The notes under the pieces are model-generated. The model was not told the origin of the DNA. It did not search any database and saw nothing but the letters and a program-made list of their open reading frames with translations. The translations under genes were made by a program, and so were the position numbers. Shown here piece after piece: positions 1-38,415 of a DNA stretch of 64,000 nt; within the stretch, counting starts at the first letter, position 1; the number at the start of each line of letters is the position of its first letter. Source of the stretch: Candidatus Electrothrix aarhusensis (GTDB taxonomy: Bacteria > Desulfobacterota > Desulfobulbia > Desulfobulbales > Desulfobulbaceae); contig MTKO01000034.1 in NCBI GenBank assembly GCA_004028505.1, positions 62,001-126,000 of the forward strand, given 5' to 3'.

Positions 1-936
1 ATAAATAATAATTTGAGTGTCATCAGATATTGAATAGTCGCGATGAATTAAGGCATTAACAATAACCTCCCATATTGCTTCTGGTGGATAGTTAAGTTTT
101 TTTAAACCATCAGAGTTCCATACTTTTACAGATGACATTATTTTTTCTACTGCCTGGACAGTCTCCTTGATCAAAGGATAAAGAGCCTTTTCTATTGTAA
201 TTTGTTCAGTAAGGTGATCCCGTTCCGGATCATCGTCCTTTGTTTCATATCGGGTAATTTTAACAGCACATTTTCTAGGAATAACAGCACTCGGATATGG
301 ATGAAATAATAATGCTGCTGACACTTTTGTTTCCCATGTTTTGTAATCAAGTAAGTTTTGATTAATACAAAATTCTAAGGGATCAGTTTTTGGCGAGTAT
401 TCAGATAAAAATTCAGTCAGCTCTTTTGATTCTGCAATTTGCTCGGCCGGAATTTCTTTAAGAGTTTGGTCCTCAAACGAAGTAGCACCTTTTGCGAATG
501 AGAGTTGAGTTATTCTTTGCGGATCTTTTATCGGAAGTGATTGGGCACCATGCCTTTGATAAACTGTTCCATCGGTTGTTTTATGAACTTCAGAGCTTTT
601 TTCAACCAATATCCGCAGAGTATATCCTGGTTTGCTTTCACATTTTAATATCTCGTATTTTAAATCTAATGATGGAGTCACTTCAAAAACTGCTTGAAGA
701 TGACTATTTAAATCTTCAATCCTTGGTGCCCCTTTCCATCTTTTTGCAGGGTCGGATTCTTCCTTTTCGTCAGCAATGCCGATAATAACTTCACCACCGT
801 CTGCGTTTGCGAAGGCTACCGCTATTTTCTGTACTTTTGCACCTTTTATGAGAAAAGACTTTCTGTCAAAAAAATGCGACTCTTCTCTGCTTGACAAATC
901 ATCCGCTTCAGTTTGTTCAATTGTTTTTATGTTCAT
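1..936 (-). CDS. AlbA_2 / RecG-like ATP-binding regulator, C-terminus outside window
   Basis: The reading frame is open from an ATG at 936 to the first base of the window (312 codons), so the 3' end is missing. The start reads MNIKTIEQTEADDL. The first ~140 residues resemble the Schlafen AlbA_2 fold: an acidic residue followed by a DRKSF segment, then an AFANADGGEVIIGIAD segment, which in this family forms the putative nucleic-acid-binding core. Near the window edge the motif NALIHRDYS is the signature of the HATPase_c_4 / COG2865 putative transcriptional regulators (ATP-dependent DNA helicase RecG-related). Proteins of this kind are usually 450-550 residues and often occur beside mobile or defence genes. 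The exact role is unknown. I see the domain signature directly; regulator versus defence function is inference. Confidence 0.75.
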   Translation of the reverse strand, partial: MNIKTIEQTEADDLSSREESHFFDRKSFLIKGAKVQKIAVAFANADGGEVIIGIADEKEESDPAKRWKGAPRIEDLNSHLQAVFEVTPSLDLKYEILKCESKPGYTLRILVEKSSEVHKTTDGTVYQRHGAQSLPIKDPQRITQLSFAKGATSFEDQTLKEIPAEQIAESKELTEFLSEYSPKTDPLEFCINQNLLDYKTWETKVSAALLFHPYPSAVIPRKCAVKITRYETKDDDPERDHLTEQITIEKALYPLIKETVQAVEKIMSSVKVWNSDGLKKLNYPPEAIWEVIVNALIHRDYSISDDTQIIIY

Positions 937-1017
937 AATTTTCAATATGTAACAGGATTAATAAGTGGAAACTTTCCATACTATTGACTGCAATAGATCC
1001 CGAAAAACTATCAAAGC

Positions 1018-2028: not shown

Positions 2029-2860
2029 TGGTTCCTTTCCCTTTGCTTAATAACTCGACAACACGTTGATGTGGAATCGGAGGGCACCAGCGCTGTTCGC
2101 GCCCGTTCATTCCATGAGAACAGAATATGGCATTGATAACAGCCTCTTCAGTTGCTTCAATGACCGCTTCATACAGTGTATTGATCGCATGATCGGAGAT
2201 ACAGCGTAACTGCATAAAATTACTGCGGACGGTGTGCACTCGGGGTTTACGATTTCCCGTGCTGAAGGCAATAATTATTTCGCCGCTGGTTGAAGCCGCA
2301 TAGGAACCGGTGCGCCCGAGACCGAGAGCAGCTCGTTTTGCCACCCGATTCAGCTGACTGGTTATAAGAGGAATATTCGTAGCAACCACAACAATGATTG
2401 ATCCTTCCGACACTTCTCGGCGACCGGCCTGATCGAATTCCTTATCCAGTGATCTGCCTATTACACCGCCATCGACAGTGAGATTACGCATTTTACCGAA
2501 ATTGGAAAGAACAAGCACTCCCACCGTAAAGGTATCACCTTCATTAACAGATAAAATACGGGAAGATGTTCCGATTCCTCCTGCAAAATCAAAGCTTGTC
2601 ATGCCCGTTCCGGCCCCGATTGATCCCTGTTGTACCGGGCCGGATGATGCTGATTCAATCGCCTTGATGGCATCCTGGGTTGAACATGTCCCCACTCTGA
2701 CATCATTTAAAAAAGAATCATCTGCTTCACCCACGACCGGTAAAACCACATCGGTTTTGGTCCCGAGTTGCGGGTGTTTTTTCAGCATATGGCTGACAAC
2801 GCCTGCATGAACTCGTCCGACGGAATGGGAATTTGTTAACAGTATCGGCGTTTCCAGCAA
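2015..2860 (-). CDS. P1-family aminopeptidase (DmpA-like), C-terminal part after a frameshift
   Basis: This frame carries the larger, C-terminal part of a DmpA / L-aminopeptidase-D-esterase protein. LETPILLTNSHSVG matches the family's conserved segment, and QGSIGAGTGM contains the Gly-Ser bond where family members cleave themselves and expose the catalytic N-terminal Ser (Ser80 of this piece). The apparent TTG start at 2860 is not a real start: the N-terminal 110 residues of the domain lie in the preceding frame (2836-4170). Inserting one base after the GGT codon near 2863 joins the two exactly where the family has E-x-G-x-LETPI. The protein should therefore be the second half of a ligase-peptidase fusion. 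It overlaps the downstream deacetylase gene by 14 bases. Confidence 0.8.
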   Translation of the reverse strand: MLETPILLTNSHSVGRVHAGVVSHMLKKHPQLGTKTDVVLPVVGEADDSFLNDVRVGTCSTQDAIKAIESASSGPVQQGSIGAGTGMTSFDFAGGIGTSSRILSVNEGDTFTVGVLVLSNFGKMRNLTVDGGVIGRSLDKEFDQAGRREVSEGSIIVVVATNIPLITSQLNRVAKRAALGLGRTGSYAASTSGEIIIAFSTGNRKPRVHTVRSNFMQLRCISDHAINTLYEAVIEATEEAVINAIFCSHGMNGREQRWCPPIPHQRVVELLSKGKGTNESH

Positions 2861-4170
2861 CCTGTCTCCAAAATCTGGGTTAACCCTGCCATTTCTCCGA
2901 CACCGTTTAAAATAAAGCCGCCAGCAGCTATCCGATTTGCATAAGCCTGACCGGCAGGCATAATTGCTGTCACACCGGTGCGTACATTGCCTGTTTCTTT
3001 ACTGCCGGGAATTTGTACATTATCTTCTTTTCGCGAGAAATGGCCGACACGAACACCTTTCACATCGGTAATTGCATTATGAATTCCGGGCGACATCCGT
3101 CCGATTTGAATGCCGATATCCCGCGCATTCGGACGAGGAATTTCAGAGGTGATGTCATTTTTTCGGGTCTGCTTTGCAGATTTTATAGCAAGTCCGTAAC
3201 GGCGTGCCGCTGAACGAATAATTAAGCGTAAGGCATCGCGAAATTCAAGACCGCGCGACCCGGCAGCAGTCATCAGAGAGGCATCAGGATGAAGACTCGG
3301 TAGGGGATTAAGTTCAATAAAATAGGGTTTTCCGTTTGTATGTAAGCGAATATCCACCCTGCCGACATCAGGGCAGGACATGATATCAAAAACCTCACGG
3401 GCCATTTTTGTGATAGTTTTTTCTTCTTCTGAAGTTATCATTGCCGGACAAATAACTTTTACCGCTTGTGCGGACTCTCCGCCCTGCTTCATGTCATAAT
3501 CGTAAATATTGTATTTACCTCCGATTTTACTGAGATCAAAAGTATGTTCAACAATGTCCAGTAATTTCCCCGGAAAACTTTCCAGGAAGGGAACGCTGAG
3601 TTCACGGCCTCCAATATATTCTTCAACAACAAGGCCCGCAGGATAATGGCCTAGAAGACGATTTATTCTTTCAAGGGCTTGATCTCTTGTTTCAACAACA
3701 GAATCCTGGGTGATTCCTTTGCTTGATCCCTCTGAGTTCGGTTTAATCATCAAAGGATATTGCAAATCTTCAGGCAACTCGCGCTCTTTGTCGGTTATTA
3801 AAACTCCTCTTGGAACACTGATTCCATGAGAAGACAAGACGGTTTTAGCGAGATGTTTATCGAGATTGAGATGAAGAAGCGACGCATTTCCCCCGGTAAA
3901 CGGAATACCCATTTGCTCATACAAGCCGGGATAAAAAGCTTCCCTTGAACTCCCGATGGTTCCCTCTGCTAAATTAAAGATAAGGTCAGGTTCACTTTCA
4001 ATAAGTCGCTCAATGACTGCATATGGTTTTCCTGAAACTTCAACAACAGTAACTGTATGTTGCAAGCTGCTGATAGCTTTGTGTATTCGATTGATATCCG
4101 CTTCAGTGAGAAGTTCTGCTGTATCTTCTGTATTATCGGTACGAAGATTGTATGCAATTGTTATTCTCAT
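2836..4170 (-). CDS. ATP-grasp D-Ala-D-Ala ligase-like protein fused to P1-peptidase N-terminus (frameshifted)
   Basis: Residues 1 to ~330 are an ATP-grasp ligase of the D-alanine-D-alanine ligase group. Visible motifs are IKPNSEGSSKGI (phosphate loop), VEEYIGGRELSVP and the metal-binding FIELNPLPSLHPDASLM. After a short linker the same frame continues into the P1-peptidase N-terminus (DIGIQIGRMSPG, ITDVKGVRVGH, NGVGEMAGLTQILETG) and then stops after seven unrelated residues. The ATG at 4170 is chosen because a GGGAGG ribosome-binding site lies just upstream. Such ligases join amino acids through an acyl phosphate. A ligase plus a self-processing amidase in one chain is unusual. The intact protein would be about 720 residues. 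The fusion is read directly; its substrate is unknown. Confidence 0.8.
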   Translation of the reverse strand: MRITIAYNLRTDNTEDTAELLTEADINRIHKAISSLQHTVTVVEVSGKPYAVIERLIESEPDLIFNLAEGTIGSSREAFYPGLYEQMGIPFTGGNASLLHLNLDKHLAKTVLSSHGISVPRGVLITDKERELPEDLQYPLMIKPNSEGSSKGITQDSVVETRDQALERINRLLGHYPAGLVVEEYIGGRELSVPFLESFPGKLLDIVEHTFDLSKIGGKYNIYDYDMKQGGESAQAVKVICPAMITSEEEKTITKMAREVFDIMSCPDVGRVDIRLHTNGKPYFIELNPLPSLHPDASLMTAAGSRGLEFRDALRLIIRSAARRYGLAIKSAKQTRKNDITSEIPRPNARDIGIQIGRMSPGIHNAITDVKGVRVGHFSRKEDNVQIPGSKETGNVRTGVTAIMPAGQAYANRIAAGGFILNGVGEMAGLTQILETGCWKRRYC

Positions 4171-4212
4171 GGTCTTGCCTCCCAATTATTCATTACGTGT
4201 TTATTCTTCTGT

Positions 4213-4743
4213 TTATTGCATTTCATGAATAATTTTTCCAAATCCATCAACTTGGTTCCAATCTGTGAATTCAATATTTGTTTTTGGATCTGTTGGACCT
4301 TTTGTTATCCACATAATGAGGCGGATCATAAGACGGTCCTGGAATCTATATTTCTGATATTCTATTTTTCCTGCAAAAACAGCGAGTCTTTTTGGTTTCC
4401 AGGTTATTTGTCTGAGGAATTTTTGGAGATATGGATTTGTTTCAGGTGTGTTTTTTTTCGGTTTGCGTGCGACAACGTTTACAGAAAAGAAGGCGTTGGA
4501 TTTATCTTCCAAGGTTTCTTGGTTGTTTTTAATAAATGCATACGTTTGTTTGCTATGTTTTCCGTAACGAATACTTGCACCGATGACTATTTTGTCAAAT
4601 GAAGTTAGGTCGGTGGCATTTGCATTATTGACAGAAACAAGGGTGACTTGATCATTCTGAGTTTCAAGGAGTTGCTTGAGGTGTAAACAGATTTTTTTCG
4701 TATGACCATCTGTTGACGAGTATATGAGGAGAATTTTAGACAT
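4213..4743 (-). CDS. hemG: Menaquinone-dependent protoporphyrinogen IX oxidase HemG
   Basis: 176 residues, against 181 in E. coli. The N-terminal flavodoxin FMN loop is YSSTDGHTKK. The diagnostic HemG segments VIGASIRYG, SVNVVARKPKKNTPETN and EFTDW are all present, and so is the long insert that separates HemG from ordinary flavodoxins. The enzyme removes six electrons from protoporphyrinogen IX and passes them to menaquinone at the inner face of the membrane, the penultimate step of protohaem synthesis. HemG is best known from Gammaproteobacteria, and a second, FAD-type oxidase (hemY) lies at 33 kb. The gene starts only about 20 bases after a candidate integron attC site, with no clear ribosome-binding site, so a cassette insertion may have separated it from its original leader. 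Confidence 0.93.
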   Translation of the reverse strand: MSKILLIYSSTDGHTKKICLHLKQLLETQNDQVTLVSVNNANATDLTSFDKIVIGASIRYGKHSKQTYAFIKNNQETLEDKSNAFFSVNVVARKPKKNTPETNPYLQKFLRQITWKPKRLAVFAGKIEYQKYRFQDRLMIRLIMWITKGPTDPKTNIEFTDWNQVDGFGKIIHEMQ

Positions 4744-4762: not shown

Positions 4763-4835
4763 ACATAACGGCAAGGCTCAGCCACTCATAAAGTGATCGA
4801 CGCTTTATGCAGTCGGCTGTAGCCTATTGTTAGCA
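4763..4835 (-). other. Candidate integron attC (59-be) recombination site
   Basis: 73 bp forming an almost perfect inverted repeat. On the plus strand the left arm is AGGCTCAGCCACTCATAAAG and the right arm begins CTTTATGCAG and ends AGCCT. The two arms pair except for three single extra bases, all on one strand, which is the pattern of extrahelical bases in attC sites. The outer boxes are ACATAAC (4763-4769) and GTTAGCA (4829-4835). Read on the minus strand, the second box (TGCTAAC) is the exact complement of the GTTAGCA core found at the other end of the cassette (5889-5895), as cassette circularisation requires. The upstream gene runs into it and ends in the tail NNRLQPTA. Confidence 0.75.
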
Positions 4836-5894
4836 TTTTTGTTTTGTTCTGACTTTAGTAATAGAACGAACCAGTCGAGCAATTTTTCTCTTATTCTGAA
4901 TAGATCAACATCTAAGGCAAACTTCTGCAAAATATAGCGAGAATCCTGTATGGTTTGCTTATGATTACTCATTGGCGCTACGGAAAAAAGCTCCGTTAAA
5001 TAAGTTTGTGATTTTATATTTCTTCCAAACAGCTGCAACTCCCATCCTGTTGGGGAAACATATAAATCAAACGCAATCGCATTTCCCGAAAGATTGAAAT
5101 CATGTACTAAGCATGATTTTGCATATATCCATTGCTTTTCACATGCATCAGGCTTTTCTATTTCTTCTTGCAACTCTCGAACTTTAGAGTTCAGCTTAGA
5201 CAGGAACTTGTTTCTCGCGTTAACCAGTGAATTTACTCTATCCTCATTTTCAATGAAGAACTTATCGTTTTCATTAAATTTCATATTATCACCTTTTAGC
5301 TTTTCTATAGTGCTCATAAAGTCTATGAGATACAAAAGCCACTTTTGCGAAGATGTTGACGCGTAGCTCCCTAGACGTTCTTTGACTTTTGAAAATAGTT
5401 CTTCATAGGTAATGCATATAAAATCAAAAGATTCTTGATCCTTCCTTATGCCAAGGATAATCTTTACGACGGTTAACTGATTGGGTTGCGCCCACTTATC
5501 AAGTGATTTGCCGTAATCTTCGAGGTCATTTGCTAGATAATGATAGATCTTGTTTTCAATGCCGATTAACTGATTATCAGTTTCTATTAGTATATCTATT
5601 CGTCCACCGTTTATTGTATATGCCTCACGACTCACCTGTACATTGCTTTGGTTTGTTTCATTTGCGGCAGCAAGATTCAGAAGAGAGGACAGCATTAACT
5701 GACCAAGGTCATGCTCATTGTTTGGATTGAGGAAGAAAGCCAGTATATTGCTTGCCACATTCTCGTAATGCGGATACCCGGCTATGTCAAATATGCTTGC
5801 GCTGCTCATTTCCTTTGGTAACGATTCAAACTCGTTAAGCAATTCTAGATATTGTTCGTACGATAAAGGCATAAGCTGTCCCTTTAGCTGCTAA
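4768..5894 (-). mobile_element. Lone integron gene cassette (one ORF plus attC)
   Basis: On the minus strand the unit begins at the G/TTAGCA core at 5889-5895. About 20 bases later it has AAAGGGA and the ATG of the nuclease gene, and it ends at the G/TTATGTG of the attC site. This is the standard cassette layout: short leader, one ORF, attC in the same direction. No integrase gene, attI site or second attC was found, so this looks like a single cassette inserted at a secondary site between a non-coding stretch and hemG rather than part of an array. Confidence 0.65.
4805..5872 (-). CDS. PD-(D/E)XK nuclease family protein (PDDEXK_4), cassette-borne
   Basis: 355 residues. The N-terminus (FDIAGYPHYENVASNILAFF) and the catalytic core match the PDDEXK_4 family: GGRIDILIETDNQLIGIENK gives the Asp and Glu-x-Lys of the nuclease fold (about residues 90-110). 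The rest is helical and variable. Proteins of this family are common but mostly uncharacterised; phage defence or DNA repair are the usual guesses. The last residues NNRLQPTA are encoded by the attC site itself, a common sign that a cassette ORF runs into its recombination site. The start has a good ribosome-binding site (AAAGGGA, 7 bases upstream). Substrate and function are unknown. Confidence 0.8.
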   Translation of the reverse strand: MPLSYEQYLELLNEFESLPKEMSSASIFDIAGYPHYENVASNILAFFLNPNNEHDLGQLMLSSLLNLAAANETNQSNVQVSREAYTINGGRIDILIETDNQLIGIENKIYHYLANDLEDYGKSLDKWAQPNQLTVVKIILGIRKDQESFDFICITYEELFSKVKERLGSYASTSSQKWLLYLIDFMSTIEKLKGDNMKFNENDKFFIENEDRVNSLVNARNKFLSKLNSKVRELQEEIEKPDACEKQWIYAKSCLVHDFNLSGNAIAFDLYVSPTGWELQLFGRNIKSQTYLTELFSVAPMSNHKQTIQDSRYILQKFALDVDLFRIREKLLDWFVLLLKSEQNKNANNRLQPTA

Positions 5895-6096
5895 CAGTGT
5901 TAATAAACGGAAAACCTTTCTTCTTCTCATGCTCATTACTCCATAACACTCCTTTACGGATAAACCAGCCCTCCTTACCCGTTTCTCTTACAGAGAAACA
6001 AAAAAACGTAGAAAGAGAAGACGATAGAGACGATGTGCTCGCGTCGGAGGAAAGGAAAAGAGCAGAGAGACTGAAGATGAATTTTTCGCCCCGCTC

Positions 6097-6771
6097 TTAG
6101 GCAATTAGCTTCCAAACCATTCTATACAGAGTCACAAGGCCGTTAATAAAGCCCTGCTTATTCTTCTTTCCCTTGGAGTATGAGGTGTAGAGGGTCTGCA
6201 CCGGAACTTCGGTAAATCGTAGGCGATTATTTTTTATCTCTCGGATCACCTTACTGTCGTATTCATACTTATCCGCCTTGGTATCAATAATCAGGGCCGC
6301 ATAGCGGGAATAAGCGCGAAAGCCGGACTGGCTGTCCGAAACCAGCAGACCATAGAACAGCCAAGTGAAAAAATTACCGACGTTGTTGGCGATCACCTTG
6401 ATAAAGGGCATGTCCTCCCGATGGAGGAGGCGGGAGCCGAGCACCACATCATTTTTCCCTTCAAGAATTGGGGTGATCAGCGGCTTGATATCCGCAGGAT
6501 CGTGTTGTCCGTCCCCGTCCATAGTCACGATCACATCCGCATTCAGCAGATTGGCCGCCATGATGCCGGTTTTGACCGCTGCCCCCTTGCCGCGATTCAC
6601 CTTGAGGCGGAGAGCCAGCACATCATGGGCAGAGGCCACGCACCAGCTCTCATCCGTGCTGCCGTCGTCAACCACGATGATATGCGGGAAACCGTGTGCC
6701 CGGACATCCTTGATGACCTGGCCCACAACTTCGGCCTCATTATAGACCGGAATAACAATAACCGTATTCAT
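6097..6771 (-). CDS. Family 2 glycosyltransferase, dolichyl/polyprenyl-phosphate mannosyltransferase-like
   Basis: 224 residues from the ATG at 6771 (an ATG three codons upstream is less likely). The GT-A fold is clear: VIPVYNEAEVVG at the start, VVDDGSTDESW for nucleotide binding, the NRGKGAA loop, and the metal-binding TMDGDGQHDPADI. The following DSQSGFRAYSR segment is typical of the DPM1/DPG_synthase branch, which moves a sugar from a nucleotide donor to a polyprenyl phosphate at the cytoplasmic face of the membrane. There is no C-terminal membrane segment, so it is the soluble short form. It lies 24 bases downstream of the DUF4139 gene and may be co-transcribed with it. The acceptor is unknown. 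Confidence 0.85.
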   Translation of the reverse strand: MNTVIVIPVYNEAEVVGQVIKDVRAHGFPHIIVVDDGSTDESWCVASAHDVLALRLKVNRGKGAAVKTGIMAANLLNADVIVTMDGDGQHDPADIKPLITPILEGKNDVVLGSRLLHREDMPFIKVIANNVGNFFTWLFYGLLVSDSQSGFRAYSRYAALIIDTKADKYEYDSKVIREIKNNRLRFTEVPVQTLYTSYSKGKKNKQGFINGLVTLYRMVWKLIA

Positions 6772-6795
6772 AAAAAACATGGAAAATATGAAAAA

Positions 6796-38066: not shown

Positions 38067-38142
38067 ATAATCTTGGTGTGATTGGGGCATGCTGTGCGGA
38101 ATGAAGCGGAGGGGGGTGAGGTGGGGAAAATAACGCTAAAAA

Positions 38143-38415
38143 TCAGGCGTGGGCCAAATAGCTTACCTCTCCAGCTCCCCTGAGTTCCTTTTCGTCGTCT
38201 GAATTGATTCGCTCGACTATTTCTATTTCATTTATCCATTCAATATTACGTATATTCCAAGAGTATAACGAAGGTTTTTTAATATATTTTTTTATATTGC
38301 GGCTTGTCCTTATAGAGCCTTCAATTGCCTTGTATTCAATCAGTCTCAAGATTAAATATTGGTCAAAATTGTTTTTTGTTAATAAGTTCATCAAGTGAAT
38401 ATTCATTTGATTCAA
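38143..38415 (-). CDS. C-terminal part of the nucleotidyltransferase (frameshifted)
   Basis: About the last 80 codons of this frame read as the continuation of the nucleotidyltransferase gene: ...ELINK, then NFDQYLILRLIEYKAIEGS, ending ELRGAGEVSYLAHA. The first dozen residues are a shadow of the upstream gene. Removing one A from the A6 run near 38378 fuses the two into a protein of about 285 residues. No start signal of its own is visible, so it is unlikely to be a separate gene. The region is much more AT-rich than its surroundings. Confidence 0.5.
   Translation of the reverse strand: MNQMNIHLMNLLTKNNFDQYLILRLIEYKAIEGSIRTSRNIKKYIKKPSLYSWNIRNIEWINEIEIVERINSDDEKELRGAGEVSYLAHA

Follow-up and report, generated by a model that had tools for sequence, protein, structure and literature searches.

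How did a single integron gene cassette come to lie beside hemG in DNA that carries no integron integrase gene? The question is raised by a 64,000-nucleotide stretch of the Candidatus Electrothrix aarhusensis genome (contig MTKO01000034.1, positions 62,001 to 126,000), hereafter called the window. In the usual integron model, one attI site lies beside one integrase gene (intI), and cassettes queue behind a single promoter. In the window, minus-strand positions 5894 to 4769 are a genuine, single, and precisely bounded integron cassette. Judging from sequence comparison, the insertion of this cassette was probably catalyzed by an integron integrase (IntI) that acted in trans and recombined the attC of the cassette with an attI-like site lacking an adjacent intI.

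The cassette and its attC site

The minus strand of the locus reads, in order, ...TTTATTAACACTG/TTAGCAGC, a 355-aa open reading frame (ORF), and TGCTAACAATAGGCTACAGCC...GGCTGAGCCTTGCCG/TTATGTG... (Table 1). Folding of the attC bottom strand, which corresponds to the plus strand, yielded -17.7 kcal/mol with a z score of -4.73, and none of 200 shuffled sequences equaled this value. Three single bases were left unpaired in the stem, all on the same side, and the arm L'' (GGCT-A-CAGCC) base-paired with L' (GGCTGAGCC) with one extra base. Two covariance models, R1 derived from a set of 11 attCs belonging to other integrons and R2 derived from 56 hits, with the window absent from both alignments, placed this attC as the top match in the 64 kb at 22.8 bits (E 0.0011) and 34.1 bits (E 1.3e-5), respectively; these E-values are rough according to the tool itself. 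Because the fold, the matches to R1 and R2, and the exact complementarity between the entry core and R'' agree, the cassette was considered real. Its only ORF has the orientation of the attC, follows a leader of 23 nt, and terminates within the attC with the C-terminus ...NNRLQPTA.

A preliminary description of the window, made from the sequence alone, had proposed a single cassette with a structured 73-nt attC, three single extra bases on one strand, complementary core boxes at both cassette ends, and a short leader before an ORF reading into the attC. Each of these traits was borne out, the extra bases being visible in the fold of the recombining strand and the site at 4763–4835 being matched by both covariance models. 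The same description had found no second attC in the 64 kb, which also held: the only other R2 match, a weak one at 38128–38217 (24.2 bits), lacks the AAC core and was judged to be noise. The scores of the window attC are modest beside those of array attCs, which reach up to 60.6 bits, and could in principle reflect a hairpin that lies beside a nuclease gene by coincidence. Such a coincidence is highly improbable, however, as the attC model, the exact core complement, the leader length, and the attI junction described below agree independently, and no relatives were found that carry the nuclease gene at this locus without these boundaries.

The core boxes are useless as a search pattern without structure, as the plain attC core-box pattern gave 39 hits per strand in the own genome versus 93 in a reversed control. 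A blastn search of plasmids with the window attC returned no match, and the exact attC pattern had 0 matches in viral contigs.

The R2 model was also scanned against eight genomes of the genus at E<=0.1, with 150 candidates scored per genome, so that the counts are lower bounds. At least 45 attC matches were obtained over seven of the eight genomes (at least 9 in the own genome, 4 in G052, 6 in G034, 2 in G055, 7 in G027, 9 in G047, and 8 in G018). G041 had none among the scored candidates in 3.6 Mb and provides a check on false-positive hits. On closed chromosomes, the matches were scattered, either single or in clusters of two to four. In 28 of 44 attC and ORF units, an exact complement of R'' was located no more than 70 bp before the start of an ORF, compared with 33 of 1748 when the core of another attC was used. 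These 44 attCs are those with available DNA and an ORF end, two of 46 match lines being omitted (one without a clear R' and one weak extra match). The cassette reported here is thus not the only one in the genus.

attI copies in the genus and in the window

The first cassettes of many clusters were preceded by a recurrent flank, CACTTATTAATACTG or a variant of it, that ended at the crossover. Alignment of the upstream regions revealed approximately 160 conserved bp that start with TTCCATGTTAG and end with ACTG. In G018 (L053) and G034 (L051), this stretch fills precisely the interval from the intI start codon to the first cassette. In copies without intI, conservation ends at the position of the intI start codon, and at the other end it stops at the cassette crossover, as in attI. 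A sequence-only attI model of 81 positions, R3, was built from 15 copies with the window excluded. When 59 genomes of the family were scanned, 21 had matches at E<=1e-4. Four genomes of other genera had an R3 match next to a divergent intI: G004 (C232, match 168–247, intI from 379), G019 (C134, 1311–1386, intI from 1513), G057 (C73, 735–813, intI from 959), and G048 (C133, 1–51, intI from 176), and three of these four sites were inspected directly in sequence. Because the conserved sequence is found just upstream of divergent intI genes, which is the defining place of attI, it was identified as attI.

The approximately 160-bp sequence also contains nested inverted repeats (AATAAGTGGAAA...TTTCCACTTATT), and matches to the model on the opposite strand reflect this palindromic structure. 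It could therefore be a repeat resembling a miniature inverted-repeat transposable element (MITE), the end of which is a preferred IntI target, rather than a copy of attI. We consider this improbable, given the canonical attI position beside intI in the four genomes of other genera and the end of conservation at the crossover.

Within the genus, R3 had 76 matches at E<=1e-4 in all eight genomes, a few of them partial: 14 in the own genome, 6 in G018, 10 in G027, 12 in G034, 7 in G041, 13 in G047, 11 in G052, and 3 in G055. A full IntI, as defined by TIGR02249, was detected in only three of the eight genomes, and most attI copies therefore have no integrase gene alongside. Imperfect repeats of approximately 21 nt precede many attI copies (L169, L170, L163, L157, and L053). 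Outside the genus, G011 had five R3 matches on contigs C3, C12, C19, C24, and C27, and the dispersal of attI may therefore extend beyond this genus. Among the genomes of the genus, G034 had 43 TIGR02249 matches, mostly short tyrosine-recombinase ORFs, and one such ORF at L051 15341–17335 adjoins an apparent IS91-type transposase, as read from the sequence with no family search. At three attI copies (G034 L051 18775, G034 L166 4850, and L210 6478 in G000 C84), the same palindromic end resembling an insertion sequence, ATAGGATGGACCGC...GCGGTCCATCCTATC, follows the crossover directly, so that an insertion element appears to occupy precisely this point.

To what extent these attI copies head cassettes was read from the junctions of the 41 copies with available DNA, 14 of which had been used for R3 and were originally found via cassettes. 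Of the 41 copies, 34 were followed after 8–70 nt by the start of an ORF no shorter than 50 aa. Since this was also the case for 450 of 984 (46%) random-offset controls, the presence of an ORF alone is a weak test, and matching cores were therefore relied on. An exact complement of the attI-side core was present at the end of the next ORF in 19 of the 41 copies, where chance predicts approximately 1% per site. Among the 27 copies outside the R3 model, the figure was 9, one of which is the reported cassette. Some further ORFs headed by attI end in visibly degenerate attCs.

The window itself contains two attI-like sites. The site flanking the reported cassette has an E-value of 0.0012 over 224 kb and 0.02 genome-wide, and its match is confined to R3 positions 52–81 of 81, so that it is not a full-length attI with the accessory part. 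Its end coincides exactly with the crossover position deduced separately from the attC. The last 22 nt of the left flank of the cassette agree with the genus attI tail at 20 of 22 positions; elsewhere in the window, only the second site equals this value, and the next best place reaches 15 of 22. The second site is better preserved and heads a cassette-like ORF after a leader of 16 nt, 4.9 kb from the reported cassette. That ORF is followed, outside the window, by a degenerate attC (TGCTAACAGACGG...GCGGCTGAATAGAGCGTTGCGC) that R2 does not match.

These results contradict the earlier statement that the 64 kb contain no attI, and they do not support the view of the cassette as a lone exception at a secondary site: the left flank of the cassette closely resembles the genus attI tail, the cassette starts at the crossover of that attI, and similar cassettes headed by attI copies without intI occur 4.9 kb away and scattered across the genus. 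The statement that the 64 kb contain no integrase was upheld. The own assembly has just two tyrosine recombinases, both on contigs other than that of the window, and its four TIGR02249 matches are partial matches to these two, the best scoring 78.4 bits against a cut-off of 265 bits.

Loot et al. 2024 are said to have described attG insertions, in which a cassette enters a secondary site. By the criterion that attG is neither attI nor attC, IntI would here have used a G^TT site in the chromosome whose resemblance to attI is fortuitous. Such insertions are already established in print (described in the accessible part of PMC12444791; Loot et al. 2024 is cited in that of PMC11023631), the match to the attI model at the site ACTG^TTATGTG covers only approximately 31 nt of the left flank, and the flank is attI-like yet truncated, with no empty site found. 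An attG insertion nevertheless appears unlikely, considering that 20 of 22 positions immediately at the crossover are identical to the attI tail, the lack of any third place in the window above 15 of 22, the clearer attI copy at the same locus in G027 (see below), and the many cassettes of the genus that start at attI copies. This was our initial reading, and it was dropped once the recurrent left flank emerged.

Table 1. Positions of the features discussed in the 64,000-nucleotide window.
Feature	Position	Strand	Details
Integron gene cassette	4769..5894	minus	1126 nt; first base follows the crossover G (5895), last base is the G of R' (4769)
attC	4763..4835	minus	73 nt; R'' TGCTAAC 4835-4829, R' GTTATGT 4769-4763
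Entry core GTTAGCA	5889..5895	minus	Crossover after G (5895); exact complement of R'' TGCTAAC
Cassette ORF, PD-(D/E)XK nuclease, 355 aa	4805..5872	minus	PF14281 E 6.8e-17; PDC-S26 E 8.7e-90
Truncated attI-like site	5892..5922	minus	R3 17.0 bits; ends at cassette crossover
Second, better preserved attI-like site	950..1007	minus	R3 49 bits, E 1.2e-13; heads cassette-like ORF
ORF of second cassette, partial, continues beyond window start	1..936	minus	467 aa, SLFN_AlbA_2 (Schlafen-like)
hemG, menaquinone-dependent protoporphyrinogen IX dehydrogenase	4213..4743	minus	NF008316 211.5 bits, cut-off 142; directly downstream of cassette
Glycosyltransferase family 2 gene	6097..6780	minus	PF00535 E 5.9e-27; upstream of locus

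The hemG locus in relatives and the route of insertion

The hemG gene, which lies directly downstream of the cassette as previously described, was detected in three of the eight genus genomes, and two relatives could be compared at this locus. G027 shares both flanks, with 89% identity over approximately 165 bp after the glycosyltransferase gene and, on the hemG side, shared sequence that begins at CGTTAT, and carries an insert of approximately 6.8 kb between them. This insert contains an attI copy that is clearer than that of the window (L021 511–560, R3 E 2.5e-7), an attC (L021 5398–5457, E 3.9e-6), and genes for two cytosine methyltransferases, a type II restriction enzyme (E 2.2e-151), and a HEC-01A-related ATPase. 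Repeats of approximately 21 nt occupy its left edge (L021 about 165–640). At L021 6717–6950, a short 77-aa ORF appears to be cut at GCG/TTATATG, with a core as at the border of the window cassette, and its attC is missing. In G034, hemG follows the glycosyltransferase gene almost directly, the spacer up to CG/TTATG is non-homologous, and neither the nuclease cassette nor an attI (R3) or attC was detectable at the locus. According to these gene and site assignments, the cassette material at the hemG locus differs between two species.

The suggestion that the cassette had displaced the leader of hemG was not supported, since a short leader starting at the core is kept in all three hemG-bearing genomes. 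The possibility that hemG itself is a former cassette was considered as well, as a core GTTAT.. precedes its ATG by approximately 30 nt in the three genomes, and was not supported, given that no attC match was found at the hemG 3' end. A D-Ala-ligase-like/peptidase S58 gene is present in the window as two overlapping ORFs (2836–4185 and 2015–2860) and as one 712-aa ORF in G027 (L021 7562–9700); the split may be due to a frameshift or a sequencing error.

In the proposed mechanism, IntI would recombine the attC of a circular cassette with the attI-like site at ACTG^TT, an event that would yield precisely both junctions observed. The integrase, present in relatives and absent or unassembled here, would have performed the insertions in trans, and the truncated attI of the window would be a former working target. 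Insertion at the attI tail predicts an empty site ...TTATTAACACTG^TTATGTGTAAACC. The steps seen in the data are the matching cassette ends, the structured attC, the attI-tail flank, the dispersed attI, and the different cargo at the hemG locus. The best reading of the pattern, in our view, is that integrase-less attI platforms would be filled in trans by IntI.

Several observations weigh against this reading. A full IntI above the TIGR02249 cut-off was not found in the own assembly, which is 89.8% complete. The attI of the cassette is cut to approximately 31 recognizable nt and is by itself significant only locally (E 0.02 genome-wide). At the 41 junctions, no ORF of 50 aa lay within range of 7 attI copies, with the control for ORF presence at 46%, and 22 lacked an exactly matching R'' at the end of the next ORF or lacked the ORF. 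In G027, the core of the first cassette (GTTAAGT) mismatches R'' of the attC found (GCCGAAC); the last gene, moreover, is cut and lacks an attC. This array is therefore damaged. Finally, the exact empty site was not found among the genus relatives with hemG (G027 and G034), because G027 carries other cassette material and the left flank of G034 is non-homologous. The comparison of empty sites put forward in the preliminary description was thus achieved in part, with shared flanks that are occupied in G027 and a place vacant of the cassette in G034.

The dispersed units of attI and cassette could also be remnants of many integrons, duplicated or separately acquired, that have lost intI, with nothing acting in trans now. 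Consistent with such decay, G018 C160 retains 92 aa of intI (95.7% identity) beside attI, several units share flanking DNA with intI-bearing units, and G041 has seven attI matches (E<=1e-4) with no attC match and no IntI above the cut-off. On the other hand, traces of intI were present in only 2 of 17 upstream regions tested (G018 C196, where it is intact, and G018 C160), conservation halts at the intI start codon in the intI-less copies, and the cargo differs at the shared hemG locus. We regard decay as an appreciable possibility, although not the expected outcome. It is the main rival of insertion in trans and presents the same anatomy, differing only on whether the intI-less sites are still loaded; the assignments of the cassette and of attI are unaffected by it.

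Insertion in trans, which we prefer, could be taken further. It is conceivable, with almost as much to be said for it as against it, that the genus has a distributed integron, in which intI-less attI docking sites, several to approximately a dozen per genome, are loaded and exchanged by one trans-acting integrase, resident or transient. If this is true, each cassette would occupy a separate genomic position and be transcribed locally, rather than taking a slot in a single array.

Cassette cargo, related systems, and implications

The nuclease ORF matched the PADLOC candidate-defence profile PDC-S26 over residues 6–336 (profile positions 3–343 of 351), and the nuclease motif D93...E107-N-K109 is present. 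Based on this profile, the promoterless cassette nuclease is a candidate anti-phage defence gene. Relatives of the nuclease were found in 48 plasmid records, all with less than 60% identity, and at four genomic loci with 27–34% identity, none of which had an attC match; none were found in viral contigs. Among 20 proteins of other attI-headed units (the reported cassette excluded), six matched PADLOC profiles at E<=1e-10. The matching cargo was HNH/SAVED-effector-like, UzuA, PDC-S11, and HEC-06/GmrSD, together with an ankyrin protein assigned to PDC-M72A and a Schlafen-like protein assigned weakly to a pAgo profile. The proteins named by Pfam analysis included a GNAT acetyltransferase and a SnoaL-like protein, and many proteins remained without a name. 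Mixed cargo is usual for chromosomal integrons.

The locus shares with a complete integron the attI crossover and a cassette with attC, a short leader, and a single ORF in the expected orientation, but differs in having only one cassette and no intI at the locus or in the assembly. With clusters of attC sites lacking an integrase (CALINs), or single such attCs, it shares an attC without integrase; here, however, an attI-like site heads the cassette, and one attC at the locus is under the default definition of two attCs. An attG insertion likewise places a cassette in the chromosome outside an integron, but the target here resembles the genus attI, whereas attG, in the accessible text on it, is neither attI nor attC. 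A further parallel in the accessible part of the literature is provided by the CALINs of Xanthomonas, which occur at several chromosomal loci away from intI and ilvD, recur at the same positions across species with intI elsewhere or lost, are mobilizable in trans by a functional IntI, and are contrasted with attG insertions (PMC12444791); attI copies at those loci are not described in that part of the paper. No paper on dispersed attI was found in our literature search, in which subscription journals were largely outside coverage.

If attI is multicopy and dispersed, cassettes could enter at many positions and be independently expressed. Integron content would then be badly under-counted, as IntegronFinder 2.0, according to the accessible part of its description, does not detect attI sites other than those of class 1, which are poorly described, and by default reports CALINs from two attCs up and skips single ones (PMC9024848). 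The divergence of attI within one genus makes the part of attI that is needed testable. The hemG locus, if this reading is true, would be a defence hot spot arising from cassette exchange: between shared flanks, one species carries a candidate-defence nuclease and another carries restriction-modification genes. Overall, one of many scattered attI copies without intI is the most likely docking place of the nuclease cassette, and an integron may thus operate at many sites simultaneously.
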